Assembly (NCBI GenBank): GCA_019057475.1
Contig: DXJO01000049.1
Coordinates: 1-38,440, forward strand
DNA: 38,440 nt
DNA from: Candidatus Thorarchaeota archaeon
Lineage (GTDB): Archaea; Asgardarchaeota; Thorarchaeia; Thorarchaeales; Thorarchaeaceae
Direction: 5' to 3'
Below, one piece after another: positions 3,812 through 21,975 of the stretch (position 1 is its first letter; every line of letters begins with the position of its first letter). The translations under genes were made by a program, and so were the position numbers. A model generated the notes under the pieces. It was not told where the DNA came from. It was given only the letters and a program-made list of their open reading frames with translations, and made no database searches.

Positions 3812-4528
3812 TCAATCATGAGTGAGAAGATAATCGCGATAACCAACAAACCGGTAACCCAATCTATCCTTCATGTCCTTAAGGAGATTGAAAACAGAGT
3901 TTGCCCTATGGTCAAGCGGATGAATGCCCATCTGCAGGGGCCCGCTAAGCTCAATCTCCATCTGTGCCTCAATGAAAGAAGCACCCTTCATACCCTGACT
4001 GATCAAACACTCAGCAGTTTCAAAAACTCGCGACTCAGGCAAATGGTACAAGCAATTGCCAACAACACAGTAATTGAAGCCTACATCTCTGACAGCGTCC
4101 ACGATACGGCGCGGCGCCACCCATAATGGGGGAACGAATCCAAAGGGTTTCTGTCCAAAGCTCTTCTTGATCAATGACTTCCCGGACTTGAGTCTGGAAA
4201 TCGCTCGCTCCTGGGGTATCCTCCTAAACTCATCAGGAGCACCGGACTTTGCGACGTGAGAGTACCCATGAAGCGAAACCTCGAGATTCAGTGATTGAAG
4301 GTACTCAGCGAACAAGTCGTGCTTCTCAAAACTGTTTGACCGCTTGAGTTCATAAAGTGGCGTGACAAGAAGAGTAAAGCTGTCTATTCCCAGGTCGATT
4401 AGACGGTCATAGGATTTGATGACATCATCTTCCATTGTGGGATTGACATCGTGAAGCGAGAGAAGGATAGTGCCGTCTGCAACTGCCTTAGTCCCTTTGC
4501 GCGAGCTGCCCTGCCCTTTCCGCACCAT
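3812..4528 (-). CDS. DUF2334 / polysaccharide-deacetylase-like protein
   Basis: This 238-residue protein looks like the DUF2334 branch of the NodB-type deacetylase fold. It has SLHDVNP near the N-terminus (the metal/catalytic Asp position), SLHGYSH in the middle (paired histidine metal ligands), a GFVPPLWVAP segment and a late IHPLDHR. These are the positions expected for a metal-dependent hydrolase acting on N- or O-acyl sugars. The substrate cannot be read from sequence. There is no signal peptide, so it is probably cytoplasmic. The ATG at 4528 has AGGTGAG just upstream, and a TATA-like element (ATGTATCA/GTTTATG region near 4560-4567) fits a short leader. It lies downstream of the histone gene, separated by an inverted repeat. 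Confidence 0.75.
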   Translation of the reverse strand: MVRKGQGSSRKGTKAVADGTILLSLHDVNPTMEDDVIKSYDRLIDLGIDSFTLLVTPLYELKRSNSFEKHDLFAEYLQSLNLEVSLHGYSHVAKSGAPDEFRRIPQERAISRLKSGKSLIKKSFGQKPFGFVPPLWVAPRRIVDAVRDVGFNYCVVGNCLYHLPESRVFETAECLISQGMKGASFIEAQMEIELSGPLQMGIHPLDHRANSVFNLLKDMKDRLGYRFVGYRDYLLTHD

Positions 4529-4577
4529 GGTCTCTCACCTGAGAATCCACAAGTTGTGATACATAAACTCATTCTAT

Positions 4578-4612
4578 CGACTAGGGCTTCAAGAAAGCGG
4601 AGAGCCTAGTCG
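4578..4612. repeat. Inverted repeat between the histone and DUF2334 genes
   Basis: CGACTAGG (4578-4585) pairs perfectly with CCTAGTCG (4605-4612) around an 18-19 nt loop that itself contains GCTT/AAGC. It lies just 3' of the histone stop codon on the minus strand and just upstream of the promoter-like region of the DUF2334 gene. It could be a processing or termination hairpin of the histone mRNA, or an operator for the next gene. There is no obvious U-tract. Confidence 0.5.
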
Positions 4613-4646
4613 GCTCTGCTGGGTCTGTGATAAGTCAATCCTAATC

Positions 4647-4883
4647 CTAGCGAGGCTTTTTCCACTGCTTGTAGGCTAAGTCAATGTCCTTGTGCGTGAT
4701 TGTCTTTCTCTTTGCGTGCTCGGTCAGCTCAAAGGCCCTTCTGGCAATGTCCTCACCGACCTCCTCAAGAATTTGCGCTAGGCGCTCCGCACCTTTGTCA
4801 CTGACTCGCTCAGCACCAGATTTTCGTATCAGCTTATCAACAGGTGCCACAGGGATGATTCTATCCTTTTTTGACCGAGGCAA
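4647..4883 (-). CDS. Archaeal histone
   Basis: This 78-residue protein is a histone-fold protein that wraps and compacts DNA. It shows the archaeal histone pattern: an N-terminal IPVAPVDKLIRKSGAERVS helix-strand region, a long central helix with GAERLAQILEEVGEDIARRA, then the RKTITHKDIDLAYKQW closing strand and helix. It has a short basic N-terminus (PRSKKDR) and a basic C-terminus (KKPR), slightly longer than the minimal HMf type of about 68 residues. The start is TTG at 4883, preceded by AAGGAGA. The ATG a few bases upstream is in another frame and hits a stop quickly. It has its own TATA box about 65 bases upstream and is probably monocistronic. Confidence 0.93.
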   Translation of the reverse strand: MPRSKKDRIIPVAPVDKLIRKSGAERVSDKGAERLAQILEEVGEDIARRAFELTEHAKRKTITHKDIDLAYKQWKKPR

Positions 4884-4945
4884 ATCTATTCATTCTCCTT
4901 AGACTGGCTTTAGCAGCCCACATAATCCCCCTTTGACTGCAATCT

Positions 4946-4955
4946 CTATTTAAGC
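4946..4955 (-). promoter_or_regulatory. TATA box of the histone gene
   Basis: On the minus strand the sequence reads GCTTAAATAG, a good archaeal box A. Placing the transcript start about 25 bases downstream (near 4926) gives a leader of about 43 nt carrying the AAGGAGA ribosome binding site before the TTG start. Confidence 0.6.
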
Positions 4956-5002
4956 GCTTGTAAGTGGCGAAAAGAACCCTCTTTGTTACGCGCGGAATTG
5001 AC

Positions 5003-6199
5003 TCAATGGTACCTTTTTCCCAGCTTCAAAATGATGATTTCCGCTCGCGAGATCTGCTCTGAAATCACCTGCAGGTCAAATGCCTTCTCAATTGACTCGA
5101 CGTCTTTCACTGAGGCTTTCACTTCGGGGTACTTAGGAGGGAGTGTGCAGCAAGATGAAACCTCTCCTGCAAGGTAGTATGTACCAATCTCTGCGGCTAG
5201 ATGTTCTATATCCACCTTGTCATCTCCAGCACAAGGCCTCAGGATTGGATAATCGCAGACCGCAGTGTTGATTGCTCTCAGATTCTTGGAGGTCTGCGAG
5301 GCTTGCTCACCGATTATCTCACCTGTAACTATCACGTCTGCATTCTCAATTATCGCAATCTCGCGCGCAAGCCGTAACATGTTCCTCTTGCAGTATATAC
5401 AAATCATCTTCTCTGGAGCATGTTGAACCACTTGAGCAAGATCCAACCCATGAGGTACGATGTACATCTTCACCTCATAATCATGGATGTATTCGGCCAA
5501 TTTTCTGGCCTGCTTGATGGCAACATCCTTGGGGGAGTTGTCCAAGTAGGGATCATTGTCGAAATGCGCGAAAACGGGTATGCATCCTCGCTTCATCACT
5601 TTGTACGAAGCAACGGGAGAGTCAAGGCCGCCTGAGATTGTACAGATGGCCTTGCCCTGAGAGCCAGTTGGCATCCCTCCGACACCTTTGACTGTTTCTG
5701 TAAATAGGTACGCAGTGTCATCGCGCACCTCGACATAAATCGACTCCTCGGGCGCAGTTAGGTTCACCTTGAGATTGAGCTCAGGCAGCCCCTCAAGGAT
5801 ACGTTCCCCAAGCTTCGCTCTGATGTCTTGACTCGTGTAGTCGTGCGTGCCAATTCTCCTAGCATCTACTGCGAATGTACTGCCCTTCGCGAACTGTTCT
5901 TTCGCCATGGCACCCCCGGTTGCCAAGATCGTATCCATATCCGAGGATGCAACCACTACTGGTGAAGCTGATACGATTCCGAAGACTTGCGATGCAGCCT
6001 TTGCTGCTTCAGCAGCCTCTTCAGTTTCAATGAATATCCGTCCGTATTCCCTTCGAACCTTTGTGAAGGACACTCCCTTCTCTTTCAGCGCCGTGCGTAC
6101 ATGTTTGACGAGCAACGAAACCATGCGACGTCTTGTCTGCTTGGACTTGATTCCAATCTCACCGAACCGGAGAAGGACTGTTGAGTAAACGGTCGACAT
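5003..6199 (-). CDS. thiI: tRNA 4-thiouridine synthase ThiI (archaeal type)
   Basis: ThiI adenylates uridine-8 of tRNA and exchanges it for sulfur. From the ATG at 6199 the protein is 398 residues: an N-terminal ferredoxin-like plus THUMP region (to about 165), then a PP-loop ATPase domain with SGGLDSP at about 189. There is no C-terminal rhodanese domain. Cysteines at about 267 and 270 (CIYC) and 350/351 (SSCC) match in spacing the three cysteines known to hold an Fe-S cluster in the Methanococcus enzyme, so a cluster-dependent mechanism is likely (inference from family knowledge). A TTG at 6223 would add eight residues, but the ATG follows a GGAAG site and begins with the conserved STVLLRFGEIGIKS region. 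It is divergent from hyuA. Confidence 0.93.
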   Translation of the reverse strand: MSTVYSTVLLRFGEIGIKSKQTRRRMVSLLVKHVRTALKEKGVSFTKVRREYGRIFIETEEAAEAAKAASQVFGIVSASPVVVASSDMDTILATGGAMAKEQFAKGSTFAVDARRIGTHDYTSQDIRAKLGERILEGLPELNLKVNLTAPEESIYVEVRDDTAYLFTETVKGVGGMPTGSQGKAICTISGGLDSPVASYKVMKRGCIPVFAHFDNDPYLDNSPKDVAIKQARKLAEYIHDYEVKMYIVPHGLDLAQVVQHAPEKMICIYCKRNMLRLAREIAIIENADVIVTGEIIGEQASQTSKNLRAINTAVCDYPILRPCAGDDKVDIEHLAAEIGTYYLAGEVSSCCTLPPKYPEVKASVKDVESIEKAFDLQVISEQISRAEIIILKLGKRYH

Positions 6200-6373
6200 A
6201 CTGAATTCTTCCGACCTCTGCAATTCGTCCTGTTACCCGAATAAAGGATTCTAAACAGACAATTATTGAGCTCCTCACCATATCCCTGAACCACACAGCG
6301 AGTGGGGGCGTAATCCTCAACAGAGTCGCCCAAGTATTCTTAATGCGGCTAGTCCTGCGAACTCCCAAGGAAG

Positions 6374-8401
6374 ATGAAGGTCATAGGTTGTGATGTCGGA
6401 GGATCCTTTACCGATATCATCATGGTCGACACAGATACAGGCGAACAGGTCGTCCACAAAGTACAGTCAACACCACACTCACAGGATGTTGCTGTCATTC
6501 AAGGCATACGTGAAATCCTCGAGGATAATGGAATATCACCCGCTGAAGTGAGTCTAGTTGTTCATGGAACAACCGTTGCCACGAACGCCATGCTCCAGAG
6601 AAAGGGGGCAAGGGTATGTCTTGTTACAACTGCTGGCCTTGAAGACTTATTGGAGATTGGAAGGCAGAACAGGGAAGAAATCTACAGTCTACAAGCAACA
6701 AGACCGCGGCCCCTAGTCGGACGGGAGTACAGGATTGGCGTACACGAGCGATTGGATGCACAAGGCAATGTAATAGAAACCCTGAATGATGATGAAGTTG
6801 AGAGAATCGTCAGCGTACTTCGAAAGAAGAAACCTGATGCGGTCGCGGTTTCGTTGCTGTTCTCATACTGCAACTCTGAGCATGAAATGATGCTGCTTGA
6901 TTGCATCAAGCAGGAGATAGAATGCTACGCCGTTGCATCATCCCAAGTGCTTCCAGAGTTCAGAGAATTCGAACGCACTTCTACAACGGTTTTGGAGGCG
7001 TACCTCGGCCCGTTGGTTCTGGGGTATCTAGGGAACCTCGATACATCGCTAAGGCAGCTTTGCCCGAAGAGCAAACTGCTGATTATGCAGTCTAATGGAG
7101 GGACAGTTCACTCCAGCCGCGCCAGCGGTCGAGCAATCGGCTTGGCAATCTCAGGCCTTGCTGGAGGGGTGATGGGTGGCTGGTACATTGCAGGTCAGAG
7201 CGGAGTAGAACAGGCCATCACAGTGGACATGGGGGGTACCAGCTGCGACATTAGCGCAATTGTGGGAAAAGTGGTTGTGAAACCAGACAATGAAGTTGGA
7301 GGGCTCCCGCTACGTGTGCCTTCAGTTGACGTGAAAACCATTGGAGCAGGAGGAGGGAGTATCGCGTGGGTTGACGACGCGGGTGTACTCCATGTTGGTC
7401 CACAGAGCGCTGGTGCTGATCCTGGACCTGCAGCATATGACAAACGGGGACTCGAGGCTACGGTCACGGATGCCAACCTATTGCTGGGAAGGCTAAATCC
7501 TCAGTTTTTTCTGGGCGGCAGAATGCAGCTTAACGTGGATTGCTCAAGAACTGCGGTTAGCAGACTCTCAAAAAAGATAGGCAAGACTGTGAACGAGGTT
7601 GCATTGGGCATCATCAGAATCTCGACCTCAAACATGATGCAAGCAATCAGAGAGGTGACGGTGGAGCGAGGACACGATCCGCGGCATTTCACACTGGTTC
7701 CGTTCGGAGGTGCAGGACCCACCCAAGCCGTGGATATTGCTGAGGCTCTTAACATCAACACGATTATAGTCCCGCCGTTTCCGGGAATAACGTCGGCCCT
7801 AGGACTCGTGTGCGCTAACCTAAGAGTGGACCTAATGAGGACTGTTCTTACAACTGACCCCGAAATGGATGCGGAGGAAGCTACTTCGGCTCTTAACGAG
7901 CTCACCGAGGAATCCCAACACAGGCTCCTAGAGCAAGGGGCAGAGAAACAGCATATCACATGTGAGTGGTCCATAGATATGCGATACGTAGGCCAGTCAC
8001 ATGAACTCTCAATCCGTTTACCACAGCGTCAGCGTGAACCGCTGTCTGCGTCTAGGCATCTATTCGAGTCTGAACATGAGAGGATATATGGCTACAGAAT
8101 GAAACGGAGAGCAGTCGAATGGGTCACCGTGCGGGTGGTCGCCAGAGCCAAGCAGCTGGACTTGAAGCCATATCGACACGACCCGCTGGAAGGGATGAAC
8201 CCACACAGTCAGCGCGACGTAATTCTTGAGGACAGCTCCTGTGCACGTGCGGAGGTCTATAGGAGAGAGCAACTGTCTGTGAAACAGCAAATCAACGGAC
8301 CGGCAATCATTGAACAAGTGGATTCGACGACTTATCTTGCACCAGACTGGTCTGCAAAACAGCGTAGAGATGGAACTCTAGTAGTGAGGAGGGGTCGATG
8401 A
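6374..8401 (+). CDS. hyuA: Hydantoinase/oxoprolinase A subunit (N-methylhydantoinase A family)
   Basis: This is a 675-residue ATP-dependent subunit of the hydantoinase/5-oxoprolinase/acetone-carboxylase-like family. The N-terminus CDVGGSFTDII and the later VDMGGTSCDIS (about residue 286) are the two phosphate-binding motifs of the actin-like ATPase fold. VHGTTVATNAMLQRKG and PFGGAGP are also family hallmarks. The family couples ATP hydrolysis to opening cyclic amides such as 5-oxoproline or hydantoins, or to carboxylation of ketones; the substrate here is not determined. The ATG follows AAGGAAG. The last four bases (ATGA) overlap the start of the B subunit, so the pair is translationally coupled and probably forms one complex. 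Confidence 0.93.
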   Translation: MKVIGCDVGGSFTDIIMVDTDTGEQVVHKVQSTPHSQDVAVIQGIREILEDNGISPAEVSLVVHGTTVATNAMLQRKGARVCLVTTAGLEDLLEIGRQNREEIYSLQATRPRPLVGREYRIGVHERLDAQGNVIETLNDDEVERIVSVLRKKKPDAVAVSLLFSYCNSEHEMMLLDCIKQEIECYAVASSQVLPEFREFERTSTTVLEAYLGPLVLGYLGNLDTSLRQLCPKSKLLIMQSNGGTVHSSRASGRAIGLAISGLAGGVMGGWYIAGQSGVEQAITVDMGGTSCDISAIVGKVVVKPDNEVGGLPLRVPSVDVKTIGAGGGSIAWVDDAGVLHVGPQSAGADPGPAAYDKRGLEATVTDANLLLGRLNPQFFLGGRMQLNVDCSRTAVSRLSKKIGKTVNEVALGIIRISTSNMMQAIREVTVERGHDPRHFTLVPFGGAGPTQAVDIAEALNINTIIVPPFPGITSALGLVCANLRVDLMRTVLTTDPEMDAEEATSALNELTEESQHRLLEQGAEKQHITCEWSIDMRYVGQSHELSIRLPQRQREPLSASRHLFESEHERIYGYRMKRRAVEWVTVRVVARAKQLDLKPYRHDPLEGMNPHSQRDVILEDSSCARAEVYRREQLSVKQQINGPAIIEQVDSTTYLAPDWSAKQRRDGTLVVRRGR

Positions 8402-15786: not shown

Positions 15787-18132
15787 TTATTTCTTTCGAC
15801 GCCCTCGAAAACCTGGGAACCAGTATATCGTACTCTTAGAGTAGCTTTTCTGCACCTTTGCCACTCCATTCTCAGCAAGAAGGTCAAGTGCGTTGGTTAC
15901 ACGATCCTCAGTCCATCCAAGACCAACAACAACATCTTCGATTGTTAAGCGACCATCTCTTTTTGCGGCGAGGCCTAGCACTTGTGTGGGGTCCTTGGTT
16001 AGTTCGACAGGCATGAATTTCACTAGGCGTGTGCCATTCTCAAGTCTTGTCATGCCTTGGATGAGCCCTTCTTTGGTCATAGAAGTAACAATGTTTTCTA
16101 TCTCTTTCGACTTGGTGGCCCATCCAAGGGAATCCAATCTAACCAAGAATTCGGAGAACATCATTATGCCCCCGGATTCCTTGGATTCCTGTGCTAATCG
16201 AAGGATGTCTCGTCTCAGACCCTCAAGCCTATCGTCCCGCTTCAGCAAACGTTTGACCATTCCTTTCTTTTTCGTCGCTTCAGCAATCCATGACTCGGGC
16301 TCATAGCCGAGCTCGGTTAGAAGCTCCTCAAATGCACTTCTATAAGCAGGTATGGTGAGCAGCGTGCTTCCTTGCTTTTGGAATGCATCTCTCAGCCTAG
16401 CTCTGATTTCGTCGATGTGTCGCGCCCGTTCCATTAGTTTGTCAAACCTGATAGTGAGACGTTCCTCGTCAGAGAATGGATCTAGGGTCACCGGTATAAC
16501 CAAGTTACTCGTTGAGCTTAGAGTGAACTCGATTGGCCTGTCGTGGTAGTCGTTTGCTCGAATTACTCCCTCATAGCGGCTCTTGGGCAGGGACGCCTTA
16601 ATCACTCCGGCAGCATCTGACCGAAGAAGAAATGCGCCCAGTTCTAGAAGGGCCCCCTCAATGGGTTTGCCTGAATCATCGTGCACGTGAAATCTAACGA
16701 AGCAAGTTGTATCAGTGCCTGAAAGAAGAGGGGACACCTTGCTGAGTTTCATTGGCTTCTTCTTGTTTTCTGGAAATCCAGAAATGATGCCGCTGAGTTC
16801 GTTAAGCAGATTCACTTTCACTAAGCCATCGGATTGCAGAGATTTGCCACCCTCCCTGATTAGGGAACGAGTGACTCCAATGGTGAGAAGGTTGTTATTC
16901 TTCGAGGAGGTCCGCAAGAATTTTCTGAATCCAACATCATTGTTGGCGCGGTGTGTGAGTTCGTCCGTAATCGAGCTGAGCCCGGAATCGGCAGCAATAG
17001 GATTGACATAGTCACGACGCCGGCCAACTTGTTGGTCAATGGGAAGCAAGTACGATGGAGGGTATACCGCGACACGCAGACGGCCCTTCTTGGAGAAACC
17101 AACCATTATGAAGGGAATCATCAGGGTGACGCCGTCTTTATCCGGGCCAACACCACTGCAAGCAACAAGAAAGGCTTCGTGCAACAACCGACGCTGATTC
17201 TCAATTCCACTTTGGGCGCTCTCAGTCCGTGAATGTAATTCCTCTTGCTGTATAAGCAGATCCCTGAAGGTTTTCTGGACCTGGGTCAGAATCTCTTCAC
17301 GTTTGGCAATATCTCTCTTCAGAGCCTTCTTCCGACCCTTCAAGGTCGTTTCGATCTCTTGCATCTTTGAGGACCGTTTACCTGCCGAAGAATCTCTCGC
17401 TGTCATTTGTTCAATCCGTGACTCCAGATTCGCGACCTCTTTCCGAAGAACGGTTATTCGTTTATTGAGTCTGGTGGTTTTCGTCGATGTCTGTGATTCC
17501 TGTTCAGAAACGATGTTCCGCATCTGAGATGCAACTTCTTCATCGACGTGAGAGAGAGCAGCTCCAGCATTGTGAAGAACTCGGAATGTTTCTTGAAGAG
17601 CCTCAGCACATTTTTCAACATCTGAATCCTTCAACAGCTTCGGAAGAATGAGGGCGTACTCTTCAAGCCTCTCTTTGGTCGGCCACTCCAACATCTGTGA
17701 TACGCATGCTGCTAATGGCCCAGATAGCACACCAAGGTGCTCCTGTGATGCAGCGGTTGAAACGGTGTTGACTACTGACAGACAATCGCGGATACAATCA
17801 AGAAGTTCGGAGCTAGAATGGCTACCCCTCACGCGATCCAGCAAATCTCCAAAATTGATTTCTTGATGACTGATAAGACTAGCAGAACTCATGCCCTGAT
17901 ACTCGATAAGAAAGCATCCTGATGATAGTGTCGAGGGAACCACTCTAATCGGAAGATATGTCTTGAGGACGAACTCGATATCATTGTCATTCTTTGTAGC
18001 CAAAGCGTTGATCAAGATTGCTGCCAACGCATAGTCCTCTGGCACCGCTTGCTTAACCGGCTGCCCATCAGCCAACCGAGTGGTTCTGGTTGCCATGACA
18101 GGGATGATGAGTTGACGAGTTGGAGAGTCCAT
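15787..18132 (-). CDS. Large coiled-coil protein with C-terminal EAP30 (ESCRT-II Vps22/SNF8-like) domain
   Basis: A 781-residue protein. Residues 1-200 are a helical region I do not recognise. About 205-325 are a long coiled coil. About 330-450 are an unassigned domain containing VYPPSYL. About 475-552 look like a carboxypeptidase-regulatory-type beta sandwich (DDSGKPIEGALLELG and later RANDYHDRP). About 578-775 resemble the EAP30 fold. In the last part, AYRSAFEELLTELGYEPES, FMPVELTKDPTQVLGLA, TIEDVVVGLGWTEDRVTNAL and IYWFPGF line up, from memory, with human SNF8 segments: a PEFRVQF helix, VPAELNMDHTVVL, TVSEIKASLKWETERA and HYWLPALF. ESCRT-II bridges upstream sorting factors to ESCRT-III in membrane remodelling. 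The family call is motif-based inference. The ATG has AAGGA upstream. The gene is divergent from the longin/GTPase genes. Confidence 0.75.
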   Translation of the reverse strand: MDSPTRQLIIPVMATRTTRLADGQPVKQAVPEDYALAAILINALATKNDNDIEFVLKTYLPIRVVPSTLSSGCFLIEYQGMSSASLISHQEINFGDLLDRVRGSHSSSELLDCIRDCLSVVNTVSTAASQEHLGVLSGPLAACVSQMLEWPTKERLEEYALILPKLLKDSDVEKCAEALQETFRVLHNAGAALSHVDEEVASQMRNIVSEQESQTSTKTTRLNKRITVLRKEVANLESRIEQMTARDSSAGKRSSKMQEIETTLKGRKKALKRDIAKREEILTQVQKTFRDLLIQQEELHSRTESAQSGIENQRRLLHEAFLVACSGVGPDKDGVTLMIPFIMVGFSKKGRLRVAVYPPSYLLPIDQQVGRRRDYVNPIAADSGLSSITDELTHRANNDVGFRKFLRTSSKNNNLLTIGVTRSLIREGGKSLQSDGLVKVNLLNELSGIISGFPENKKKPMKLSKVSPLLSGTDTTCFVRFHVHDDSGKPIEGALLELGAFLLRSDAAGVIKASLPKSRYEGVIRANDYHDRPIEFTLSSTSNLVIPVTLDPFSDEERLTIRFDKLMERARHIDEIRARLRDAFQKQGSTLLTIPAYRSAFEELLTELGYEPESWIAEATKKKGMVKRLLKRDDRLEGLRRDILRLAQESKESGGIMMFSEFLVRLDSLGWATKSKEIENIVTSMTKEGLIQGMTRLENGTRLVKFMPVELTKDPTQVLGLAAKRDGRLTIEDVVVGLGWTEDRVTNALDLLAENGVAKVQKSYSKSTIYWFPGFRGRRKK

Positions 18133-18352: not shown

Positions 18353-19465
18353 ATGCCAGAAGCGATTTTCGTAGTTCATTTGGACGATTACCAAGGATTC
18401 GTTGTTGAGAAGCGCTATCCCTCCACACTTTCCCTCAATGAGAAGGCGCTAAACCTTGTGTACTATGAGCATGAGAAGGAGAAGGCAACGAACCTCAAGT
18501 TCTCAGATATAGAGGGAATGAGGGTGGTTTCTTTCGCTGAAAGGACACACCCCGGATGGGTAGTGTGCTTTGTCCTCGGAGCTGATGAGGATTACGAAAC
18601 TGAGGACAATAACATGGCAGGCATGGCACGGCTCATCTTGGAACTGATGAGCGAAGTGCCAGATGCGGTCAACTTGCGCGAGATCCTCGGTAATGAGAGT
18701 GTTCTCAATGAACCGAATGAGGAGCAGAAGATGGCGGACATCTTCTTCACTCCTTCATCTGCGCTGCTTCTGGAAAGACTCGAGATAGAGGGTGTGGAAA
18801 AAGCGGCCAAGCTTTCTATCTGGCTTCAAACTCAATTGCAGACAGACACAATCGAGCTCCATGAGATTGTGGAACCACTTATGCAATCCGGAGTTATCAA
18901 GGTTGAACTGCTAGGCAAGACAGGAGAAACTGTTTTCCTGGTCAAGGATATTTTCGGCTATCGCGCCCCACCCGTGAAGTCAATCATGAAAGCTATGGAA
19001 GCTGACCCAGAAATGGGCAAGAAGTACAAGCAGCTTGTTTCAAGTTTCTTCTCGCCCCCCACGGGTAAGGGTTACAATCCCACACTGCCATTGGACGATC
19101 CAAACTCTCCACTTCTTGAGGACAGGGAGAAGATGTCAAGGCTGCTCTCCAAGAGTTTACCTTATATGGTCCTGGAATGTCTGCGCGAGGGCCCTCAGGA
19201 GATTGGGAATATAGCACAGAAGACGGCGCTTCCTCTTGAAACCGTCCAATCTATTCTGTGGTCGTTCGAATCGGACAGAGTGGCTGCCCAGCTTGATGAA
19301 TACGGTATCTGGGTACTTGTTTCAGATCCTGTTATTGAATCATTCATGCCTGAGTTCATACTCCCGGCTATTTCAAAGAAACTAGCAGACAAGGAGCTAG
19401 CACCTGAAACAGCAATTAGGCATCTTGAACTCCTTATCGAGGAGTGGGGTGAAATTTGTGATTAG
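18353..19465 (+). CDS. Longin-like N-terminal domain protein with winged-helix-like repeats
   Basis: From the ATG at 18353 this protein has 370 residues. The first 100 residues follow the beta-beta-alpha-beta-beta-alpha order of longin or roadblock folds: AIFVVHLDDYQGFVVEKRYP, a helix, SDIEGMRVVSF, WVVCFVLGADED, and a final helix AGMARLILELM. The rest is helical, with two segments that look like winged helices (ELHEIVEPLMQSGVIKVELL and IGNIAQKTALPLETVQSIL). I do not know a named family for the whole. Its last codons overlap the start of the longin-Arf GTPase gene by eight bases, so the two proteins are probably made together. A role as GTPase partner or regulator is plausible, by analogy with longin dimers in eukaryotic trafficking. 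An in-frame ATG at 18341 would add four residues. Confidence 0.7.
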   Translation: MPEAIFVVHLDDYQGFVVEKRYPSTLSLNEKALNLVYYEHEKEKATNLKFSDIEGMRVVSFAERTHPGWVVCFVLGADEDYETEDNNMAGMARLILELMSEVPDAVNLREILGNESVLNEPNEEQKMADIFFTPSSALLLERLEIEGVEKAAKLSIWLQTQLQTDTIELHEIVEPLMQSGVIKVELLGKTGETVFLVKDIFGYRAPPVKSIMKAMEADPEMGKKYKQLVSSFFSPPTGKGYNPTLPLDDPNSPLLEDREKMSRLLSKSLPYMVLECLREGPQEIGNIAQKTALPLETVQSILWSFESDRVAAQLDEYGIWVLVSDPVIESFMPEFILPAISKKLADKELAPETAIRHLELLIEEWGEICD

Positions 19466-20306
19466 AGGCGTTTACATTCTTGGACAACAGAGTGAGATGA
19501 TATTCTCAAAAGAGTATGCCAAGAGCGAACACAAAGATAGTCTGATCGAGTTTCTAGTGAATCTTACACAGTTCATCAAGGCTGTGGAGCTCGACGGAAA
19601 TGTGGAGTCAATGGGCGTATCGAGCTGGAGAATATTCTACAGTTTAGAAGATGCTTTCACATTCGTGTTCATTGCCGACAAGGCGGATGACAGCGCACAG
19701 ATTAAGGGGAAGATAAGCGACCTAATTGTGAAATTCATGAAGGATTACGCCCCTCTTGCCATAGCAAACCAGCCTCTTGAAGGACTCGATGCCATCGTGG
19801 ACGAAGTTGCAGTCACTTTGGTGAAAGTCGCCATACTCGGCTTCGCAGGTGTGGGGAAGACGACTACTTTGCACCTATTGAGAGGAGAAACTCTCCCCCT
19901 TGTCCATGACCCCACCATTGGTGTTTCAATCAAGAAATTGCCCACCGAAGTGGAGAATGCTAATATCGTCCTTTGGGATCTCGCAGGTCAATCAAGGTTC
20001 AGTATTCTTTGGGCCAAGATGATTGCCAATGCACAAGTTGTTGTGATTGTTACTGATAGCACGCTGGAGAATGTGCTGAGAAGCAAGAAGTTGGTAACTC
20101 TAGTCAGCGAAGAAGTTCCGAACGCAAGGGTGATTGGCATTGCAAATAAACAAGATCTTCCAACAGCACTGACTCCTGAGCGAGTTGGCCAGATTCTAAG
20201 CATTCCCACTTACGAACTAGTAGCCATCGATATTTCATACCGTGAAAGGCTCATCCAAATCATTAGAAAGTCTATTCTCGAAGGAAAGGCTGACAAGGTT
20301 ACATAG
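19458..20306 (+). CDS. Longin-like domain fused to Arf-family small GTPase
   Basis: This 282-residue protein begins at GTG 19458, with GGGGTGA five bases upstream and an 8-base overlap with the previous gene. Residues 1-105 look like a longin domain (VIRGVYILGQQSEMIFSKEY, then EFLVNLTQF and WRIFYSLEDAFTFVFIADK). Residues 120-282 are a Ras-superfamily GTPase: G1 GFAGVGKTT (128-136), switch I Thr in DPTIGVS (153), G3 WDLAGQ (173-178), G4 NKQD in NKQDLPTAL (230-233) and a G5-like VAID. The WDLAGQ and NKQDLPxA wording is typical of Arf/Arl/Sar proteins. The catalytic Gln after DLAG is kept, so it should hydrolyse GTP. There is no lipidation motif; the longin domain may replace the usual N-terminal membrane helix. 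An ATG at 19425 is a less likely start. Confidence 0.88.
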   Translation: MIRGVYILGQQSEMIFSKEYAKSEHKDSLIEFLVNLTQFIKAVELDGNVESMGVSSWRIFYSLEDAFTFVFIADKADDSAQIKGKISDLIVKFMKDYAPLAIANQPLEGLDAIVDEVAVTLVKVAILGFAGVGKTTTLHLLRGETLPLVHDPTIGVSIKKLPTEVENANIVLWDLAGQSRFSILWAKMIANAQVVVIVTDSTLENVLRSKKLVTLVSEEVPNARVIGIANKQDLPTALTPERVGQILSIPTYELVAIDISYRERLIQIIRKSILEGKADKVT

Positions 20307-20411: not shown

Positions 20412-20972
20412 ATGTCCTTTGATTTCAGTGCTATGCAGAAGCAGATGGAAGAGATCGCGGAATTCGCGAACAAGGTTGCTGAAACCAAGAAATTGGCGGA
20501 TGAGTTGGCAGAGAACTTTGCTAAGATGAAGCTGTCTATCAACCAGACAATCAACGACTCGTTCACGGAGATCGCAAACCAAATCGATACTCTTCGCAAG
20601 AATATGGAAATGATGGAAAGCATAAAGCCTTCAACCCCAAAAGTTGAGGCTCCGGCTCCGGAAGCAGATCCTACTCCGACCCCCGAGCCGGAGATTACGC
20701 CGGAACCTGAACCCGAACCCACTCCCGAAGTGACAGAACCAGCTCCTGAGCCTGCACCAGAAGCAGAGGCTGCACCAGCAGTTGAAGCTGCTGAAGGCAA
20801 TGACCAACTCGATTTCCTGTTGCAGCAAAAAGATCGCCTGAAGGCTCAGCTTACAGACTTGCGCTTTGATTACATGCGCGGGTACATACCTGAAGACGAC
20901 TACAAGGCCAAAGAGGGAGAACTGGATACGCAGTTAGAGGGTCTGGACAAACAGATAGCAGGACTGAAGTAG
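20412..20972 (+). CDS. Coiled-coil protein with Pro/Glu-rich linker
   Basis: This 186-residue protein has three parts. Residues 1-75 form an amphipathic coiled coil (AMQKQMEEIAEFANKVAETK and TEIANQIDTLRKNMEMM). Residues 76-135 are a Pro/Glu/Ala-rich flexible linker with repeated PEPxP and PAPE units. Residues 136-186 form a C-terminal helical hairpin (LLQQKDRLKAQLTDLRFDYM and DDYKAKEGELDTQLEGLD) resembling SHOCT-type tails. There is no membrane segment. It probably oligomerises and tethers partners. The ATG has AGGTGG six bases upstream. It follows the longin-GTPase gene by 105 bases on the same strand and may belong to the same functional group, but I cannot assign a family. Confidence 0.75.
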   Translation: MSFDFSAMQKQMEEIAEFANKVAETKKLADELAENFAKMKLSINQTINDSFTEIANQIDTLRKNMEMMESIKPSTPKVEAPAPEADPTPTPEPEITPEPEPEPTPEVTEPAPEPAPEAEAAPAVEAAEGNDQLDFLLQQKDRLKAQLTDLRFDYMRGYIPEDDYKAKEGELDTQLEGLDKQIAGLK

Positions 20973-21231: not shown

Positions 21232-21975
21232 CTATTTCTTAGGGGTCTTCTTCTTGGGCTTTGCTTCCGCCTTCTTCTTAGTGACCTTCTTCTTGGGCTT
21301 TGCTTCCGCCTTCTTCTTAGTGACCTTCTTCTTGGGCTTCGCTTCCGCCTTCTTCTTGGTCACTTTCTTCTTGGGCGTTTCTTCAGCCCTTTTCTTAGTG
21401 ACTTTCTTCTTGGGCTTTGCCTCAACCTTCTTCTTGGTCACTTTCTTCTTGGGCTTTGCCTCAGCCTTCTTCTTGGTCACTTTCTTCTTGGGCTTCTTCT
21501 CTTCAGGTTTCGGAACTTCGGCAATAAGAGATTCCGCAGTTTCCGCGAGGGGCTCAACTACAATCTCAGGTTGTCGAGCCTTTTCTTTCACCTTGCGATC
21601 GTCGAGAGCGCGTCGCTGCCGTGCAAGTTTGCCAGGTTTCGCGGATTCAGCCGCTGAAACTGCACCAAGAGCTATGTCTATTTCTTTGGTAATCACAGGA
21701 CGCTTGGGCACAGAGGATGCGATTTCCTCAAGGACGTCTACAATCATAATTGGTTTGCCGCCGTCCCGCTTCTCGATCTCTGCAGGAGTCGTGTAGACAA
21801 CAAAGCCACTTTCGTGAATATAGGGAACAATCACGCCTTCAGTTTCCTTGTCCTTGAGTATTCTGCGTGCAATGCTCATCCTGATGTTGAACCGCTGGGC
21901 AAGGTCATAACTAGTGACTGATTTTGCCTTCTTCACGTACTCATCAATTTCGCCAATTGTTTCTGGTTTGGGCAC
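21232..21975 (-). CDS. rps25e: Ribosomal protein S25e with long lysine-rich C-terminal tail
   Basis: The first standard start is GTG at 21975 (247 residues). S25e is a small-subunit winged-helix protein; here SVTSYDLAQRFNIRMSIARR and ILKDKETEGVIVPYI match the archaeal family (ITPYALA...ISVARKIL). Family members usually end soon after, near 100 residues. This one continues with a linker, then six 13-residue repeats of the PKKKVTKKKAEAK type, like a histone-H1 or AlgP tail. The conserved N-terminal part (KKWGRTATKTEKIVRDAV) lies upstream of the GTG in the same frame, back to about 22041. The real protein therefore probably starts at a non-AUG codon there. A TATA box at 22093-22101 fits that start. 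Confidence 0.8.
   Translation of the reverse strand: MPKPETIGEIDEYVKKAKSVTSYDLAQRFNIRMSIARRILKDKETEGVIVPYIHESGFVVYTTPAEIEKRDGGKPIMIVDVLEEIASSVPKRPVITKEIDIALGAVSAAESAKPGKLARQRRALDDRKVKEKARQPEIVVEPLAETAESLIAEVPKPEEKKPKKKVTKKKAEAKPKKKVTKKKVEAKPKKKVTKKRAEETPKKKVTKKKAEAKPKKKVTKKKAEAKPKKKVTKKKAEAKPKKKTPKK
21259..21492 (-). repeat. Six tandem 39-bp units encoding the S25e tail
   Basis: Six head-to-tail 39-base units each encode a 13-residue PKKKVTKKKAEAK-like block, with small variations (VEAK, RAEET). They are followed by a partial unit before the stop. Near-identity at the DNA level between units suggests recent slippage or recombination. Confidence 0.85.

Follow-up and report, generated by a model that had tools for sequence, protein, structure and literature searches.

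A longin–Arf-like GTPase fusion and its longin–winged-helix neighbour in Thorarchaeota: a candidate two-protein membrane-switch module

In eukaryotic vesicle coats and nutrient-signalling complexes, GTPases of the Arf and Rag types and longin proteins occur as separate subunits. In the genome of a Candidatus Thorarchaeota archaeon (3.34 Mb; assembly GCA_019057475.1), one gene within the window, i.e. the whole stretch of 38,440 nucleotides of contig DXJO01000049.1 that was analysed, joins both in a single chain, which raises the question of whether such a protein constitutes a switch sufficient in itself or a component of a larger assembly. The first-pass annotation had described a longin-like domain and an Arf-like GTPase in one open reading frame at 19458..20306; the frame is there (+ strand, 282 aa, GTG start) and both domains were confirmed. 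The GTG at 19458 is regarded as the right start, since the orthologues open at the equivalent MIR/VIR residue and since the reading frame of one orthologue (L037) is shut one codon 5' of this position. Among 59 related genomes, 54 contain relatives of the fusion gene, and about 25 of these relatives are full-length orthologues with 67-95% identity; hence, the fusion is not a product of chance.

The G domain (aa ~119-282; 19812..20303, +) bears the full G1-G4 set with WDLAGQ and NKQDLP that had been read from the sequence at first sight, namely the P-loop GFAGVGKTT (G1), PTIG in switch I, WDLAGQ (G3) and NKQD (G4), all of them intact. Throughout an alignment of 80 homologues, the P-loop including its lysine, the switch I threonine, WD..GQ and NKQD are invariant or nearly so, and the small-GTPase fold is complete in the AF2 model; judged from its residues, the domain appears to be of the active type. 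The Pfam Arf family (PF00025) matches aa 125-279 (285-aa numbering) with E=1.7e-19 and 70.4 bits versus a cut-off of 22.3, while Roc and Ras families are also above their cut-offs with scores below that of Arf. The best Foldseek matches include ArfR proteins from Asgards (GerdArfR1, HodArfR1) as well as Arl1 and Arl8b. In a tree with a small reference set of 20 other GTPases of the same genome plus ARF1 and RAB1A (both identical to PDB chains), from which Rag, Sar, SRbeta, G-alpha and ArfR are absent, the longin-fused GTPases constitute one clade (99/99), which includes one more GTPase of this genome (L170) and joins ARF1 (support 95/81), not RAB1A.

The initial assignment to the Arf/Arl/Sar group is thus upheld with respect to the Arf side of the Arf/Rab split in this limited tree, but strict membership in Arf was rejected because two defining features fail. 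An Arf-type N-terminal amphipathic helix and a myristoylatable Gly2 are absent from the chain, which opens with MIRGVYILG, corresponding to longin strand 1, and nearly all family members feature WDLAGQ or WDFAGQ instead of the WDVGGQ switch II. Hence, the GTPase is named Arf-like rather than Arf. Eukaryotic Arf/Arl proteins and Asgard ArfR (PDB 8oum, 8ouk) rank with the closest matches of the G domain in both structure and sequence and share NKQDLP and the Arf side of the tree, whereas the N-terminal longin, DLAGQ and the GVGKT P-loop of the present protein stand opposite an amphipathic or myristoylated helix and DVGGQ.

The N-terminal part (aa ~1-103; 19458..19766, +) is predicted by AF2 to adopt a b-b-a-b-b-b-a-a topology over residues 2-102, with strands at 2-8, 14-19, 50-54, 57-64 and 67-74 and helices at 26-43, 79-96 and 98-102. 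Failure of this region to fold as a longin or roadblock domain had been named as the result that would speak against the annotation, and structure prediction yields a longin topology. Taken alone, the ~100 N-terminal residues of the window copy have no Pfam match; in relatives, however, Clat_adaptor_s (PF01217) is found in 12 of 20 family members (best 1.1e-8), Fuz_longin_1 in seven and Longin in three. A profile of these N-terminal domains only, comprising 20 sequences and run against proteins of known structure in the PDB, matches AP-2 sigma over the whole domain length with E=2.4e-7, followed by AP-3 sigma (9e-6) and AP-4 sigma (0.0015), and more weakly MON1, VAMP7 and delta-COP. On account of the profile matches to AP sigma and of Clat_adaptor_s in relatives, the predicted domain is assigned to the longin fold of the adaptor-sigma type. 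A roadblock identity was rejected, as strand 1 lacks a preceding helix, two helices follow at the C-terminus and the matches are to sigma, MON1 and VAMP7. In eukaryotes, Arf1 recruits AP and COPI coats, and a sigma-type longin is therefore an apt companion of an Arf-like GTPase. Compared with AP-complex sigma and COPI zeta, the likeness in sequence to AP-2 and AP-3 sigma extends over the full length, whereas the eukaryotic sigma is a separate subunit of an Arf1-recruited coat and the domain considered here is covalently joined to its GTPase. Elsewhere in the same genome, a 218-aa protein (contig 56, L004:4174-4827) matches the longin of this family and has no GTPase domain.

The architecture as such is of a kind already known, since 26 of the 74 small GTPases of MK-D1 (Ca. 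P. syntrophicum) carry a roadblock or longin domain in the same chain, and these fusions, with which the present protein has the one-chain architecture in common, were classed as Rag-like but close to Arf (PMC10933270). Longin and G domain are connected by a linker (aa ~104-118; 19767..19811, +) with a predicted helix at 110-118. The AF2 model of the entire chain, based on the alignment of 80 sequences, attains a mean pLDDT of 83.5 and a pTM of 0.61; therefore, the packing of the longin against the G domain is not firm. This bears directly on the suggestion of the first-pass annotation that the single chain would be a self-regulated or self-targeted GTPase. In such a switch, the longin would fold onto its own G domain, acting as GEF or GAP in cis or by autoinhibition, and the neighbouring gene would merely be co-expressed. 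The covalent fusion ensures proximity of both domains, and longin and roadblock platforms of known systems bind small GTPases directly. On the other hand, the packing is not firm, and a second longin protein, with which the fusion is strongly paired and has diversified in parallel, as detailed below, argues for a hetero-complex. Accommodation of both domains in one chain is thus the part of the suggestion that stands; purely self-contained regulation is possible, less well supported than a two-protein module, and in our estimate unlikely.

The second longin protein, which the first-pass annotation did not mention, is encoded directly upstream (18353..19465, +) by a gene that overlaps the fusion gene by 8 nt (19458–19465). 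It comprises 370 aa, has no confident Pfam family and is modelled by AF2 (mean pLDDT 90.5) as a longin domain (aa ~1-115) followed by tandem winged helices (~123-205 and ~254-331), the longin consisting of strands 4–11 and 15–22, helix 30–42, strands 48–53, 56–61 and 69–75 and helices 81–101 and 108–114. The top three Foldseek matches are chains of GATOR1/SEA entries (9o5d_D with E=9.9e-5, 8adl_S and 9v0j_A; E up to 7.7e-4; whole-chain TM ~0.2), while longins of zeta-COP and AP sigma appear further down the list. Chain length suggests that the matched chains are NPRL2/Npr2-type subunits; because their identity is judged by length only and the whole-chain TM is about 0.2, the resemblance to NPRL2 is to be read as architectural likeness. 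Like NPRL2 and NPRL3 of GATOR1/SEACIT, the partner combines a longin with tandem winged helices; in contrast to them, Pfam NPR2/NPR3 is not seen among the best 25 of 31 families listed for 42 partner members, no invariant arginine occurs in the longin of these 42 proteins, and no DEPDC5-like gene was seen nearby. Conservation among these 42 longins thus gives no indication of a GATOR1-type arginine finger. A PDB profile search with the partner returned essentially winged-helix matches only and no direct sequence link to NPRL2. An 'NPRL2-like longin domain' family is already contained in the asCOG set for Asgards (PMC9834061). The identification of the partner as a plain HTH regulator was rejected, since the Pfam HTH matches are weak and confined to winged helix 2 in the window protein, and since a longin comes first in the AF2 model. 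A third relative of the partner longin in this genome (L118:928-1953, -) continues with apparent zinc ribbons and has no winged helices.

The pairing of both genes extends over Thor-, Jord-, Freya-, Sigyn-, Hermod-, Hel- and Lokiarchaeia with variable gene order. According to an iterated partner profile, all 28 Thor loci and eight Jord/Freya/Sigyn loci have the partner upstream of the longin-GTPase, while four Hermod loci and one Hel locus have it downstream. The entire neighbourhood is syntenic within Thorarchaeia, so that the 28 Thor loci are not independent of one another; long-range synteny with the window, however, is limited to Thor loci, and the paired loci of the other classes are therefore independent of it. 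The MK-D1 fusions differ in this respect: a longin–winged-helix gene is consistently paired with the GTPase here, whereas the GTPase genes of MK-D1 do not generally share operons with those for RB, longin or TRAPPC3 and an NPRL2-like partner does not feature in the main text of that study (PMC10933270). A paralogous Thor locus (L114) likewise carries partner and longin-GTPase, and the genome of the window contains exactly two full-length partner genes, each adjoining a longin-GTPase or within ~1 kb of one; the second of them, on contig 45, is separated by no more than about 1 kb from a paralogous longin-GTPase of 599 aa. Identity between the own-genome paralogues A and B amounts to only 29% for the GTPase and 21% for the partner, which argues that the pair is old. 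Moreover, the trees of GTPase and partner from 22 nearby pairs agree in their main groups (Thor-A, Thor-B, Jord/Freya/Sigyn, Hermod, Hel+Loki and f5/f16), and the protein distances of both families correlate with a Mantel r=0.80, a value reached by 0 of 5000 permutations. By these comparisons of sequences, the two families are seen to have diversified together. Further paired arrangements were encountered, for instance on contig 52 of the same genome (L002:3849-7590, -), where a 641-aa longin-GTPase adjoins a protein of 571 aa that contains two longin-like segments; the C-terminal extension of this GTPase has the appearance of a further longin and winged helices.

On balance, we lean towards regarding the longin-Arf-like GTPase as one half of a two-protein membrane-switch module together with the upstream longin–winged-helix–winged-helix protein. 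Counted against it are the many longin-GTPases, among them most Loki loci of the neighbourhood set, for which the fetched flank contains no partner, the many Loki partners that lack a GTPase in their vicinity, the missing invariant arginine in the partner longin, and the weak similarity of partner and GTPase longins in an end-to-end hhalign comparison (E=0.0026, probability 12%). Longins form heterodimeric platforms in GATOR1, Mon1-Ccz1 and TRAPP. By analogy, the longins of GTPase and partner could pair into a heterodimeric platform, which would hold the GTPase at the inner membrane and control its nucleotide state, so that a longin–longin complex is probably formed rather than a self-contained enzyme; the partner would then be a regulator or an effector of the GTPase, and GEF or GAP roles within the pair are conceivable. 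The bacterial MglA/MglB operon, encoding a small GTPase and its roadblock GAP, resembles the pair in that a small GTPase gene is paired with a longin/roadblock-fold gene, and differs in that both proteins here have a longin, the partner has winged helices and the G domain is Arf-like.

Alternatively, two copies of the GTPase might pair via their longins in the manner in which Rags pair via roadblocks, leaving the partner as a downstream effector only. Homodimers of Rag-like fusions have been proposed from AF2 models for MK-D1 (PMC10933270), and tandem sets of two or three longin-GTPases, which occur in several genomes, as in the Freyarchaeota contig L072 (three genes, 3973-6975) and in the Hermod locus L091, would permit heterodimers as well. 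Such an arrangement would leave both the longin of the partner and the parallel duplication of the two genes unexplained, and we deem it quite unlikely. The Hermod locus (L091:2-4252) encodes a longin-GTPase, a longin-like protein with a cyclin/zinc-like part, a second longin-GTPase and a partner, and looks like a set of two GTPases and two longin proteins.

The partner family, which is present in 104 of the 147 Asgard genomes and reaches as many as 13 matches in a single one, provides a further indication of what the two-protein module might be connected to. In 20 regions outside Thorarchaeia, taken from the partner-family list regardless of their neighbours and containing 30 partner ORFs, a predicted single-pass surface receptor is beside or fused to 25 of the 30, transmembrane segments being called by simple hydropathy rather than by a trained predictor. 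The gene for a type-I-like membrane protein is located directly upstream of 18 partner ORFs, mostly at a distance of 2–11 nt, directly downstream of five and fused in two, while a directly upstream receptor was found for none of the 135 other ORFs of the same regions. The upstream proteins are large (roughly 860–1940 aa where seen), and for some ectodomains there are matches to LamG, DUF2341 or Ig-like families, several of them under the curated cut-offs. In the fused receptor-partners of 2648 and 2669 aa, a signal near 7–28 and a transmembrane segment near 2170–2214 precede the partner at 2283–2660, and the cytoplasmic tails of most unfused receptors are about as long as the stretch before the fused partner. 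Eight of the 20 regions also contain a GTPase of the longin-GTPase family; at the window locus, no receptor adjoins the partner and GTPase genes. Among individual loci, L150 (2592-10535 and 10990-18996, -) encodes tandem proteins of ~2650 aa with a LamG/DUF2341 ectodomain, one C-terminal transmembrane segment and a fused longin–winged-helix cytoplasmic part, and Loki-type regions (L149, L155, L157 and L162-L167; class names for L148–L167 being derived from tree position) show giant type-I-like surface proteins tightly coupled to partner genes, often in two to three tandem repeats.

In relatives, the partner gene is joined to that of a membrane receptor by translational coupling or by fusion, which also speaks against the idea of a transcription regulator whose winged helices bind DNA and which is tuned by the GTPase. 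Winged helix 2 does resemble ArsR/TrmB-type HTH domains. NPRL2/3-type proteins, however, possess winged helices as well and are not known to act as transcription factors, and this idea appears very improbable. Within the two-protein module, the partner of Loki-type relatives may rather receive input from a surface receptor or sort it, while the thorarchaeal copy of the window, devoid of an adjacent receptor, may employ a coiled-coil protein as a third component. As a tentative extension, rather doubtful at present, Asgards might harbour a receptor-coupled small-GTPase system comprising a LamG/Ig-like single-pass receptor or adhesin, an NPRL2-like cytoplasmic partner, either separate or fused, and the sigma-longin-Arf-like GTPase, of which the Thor window would represent the cytosolic core; if true, this would be a prokaryotic arrangement joining features of GATOR1-Rag signalling and of Arf-adaptor cargo coupling. 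More generally, the pairing across Asgards and the receptor coupling in relatives hint at a module of ancient origin for signalling or sorting at membranes. The sigma-longin-Arf-like GTPase and its GATOR1-like partner constitute a concrete two-protein system in which the function of a pre-eukaryotic module may be tested, and the coupling or fusion to surface receptors suggests, in a form open to testing, what its input or cargo could be. A search of full-text open-access articles in PMC returned no report of the gene pair or the receptor link; the second longin partner and the receptor link are thus provisionally considered as what is added here to the known type of fusion.

The candidate third component is encoded downstream of the GTPase (20412..20972, +) as a 186-aa coiled-coil protein with an acidic, proline-rich middle, which occupies the same position across Thorarchaeia, and a coiled-coil gene of ~110 aa is found at this position in Jord/Freya/Sigynarchaeia. 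An identity as CdvA is not supported, as the Pfam CdvA match (E=0.007) is under the cut-off. A further gene (15787-18132, -), which is conserved in Thorarchaeia and oriented divergently to the operon, encodes a 781-aa coiled-coil protein with C-terminal winged helices of the EAP30/ESCRT-II-like type (Pfam E=2.8e-5, just under the cut-off). On the other side of the locus, the gene at 21232-21975 (-) encodes an S25-type winged-helix domain that bears a long tail of KKKVTKKK/EAKP repeats.
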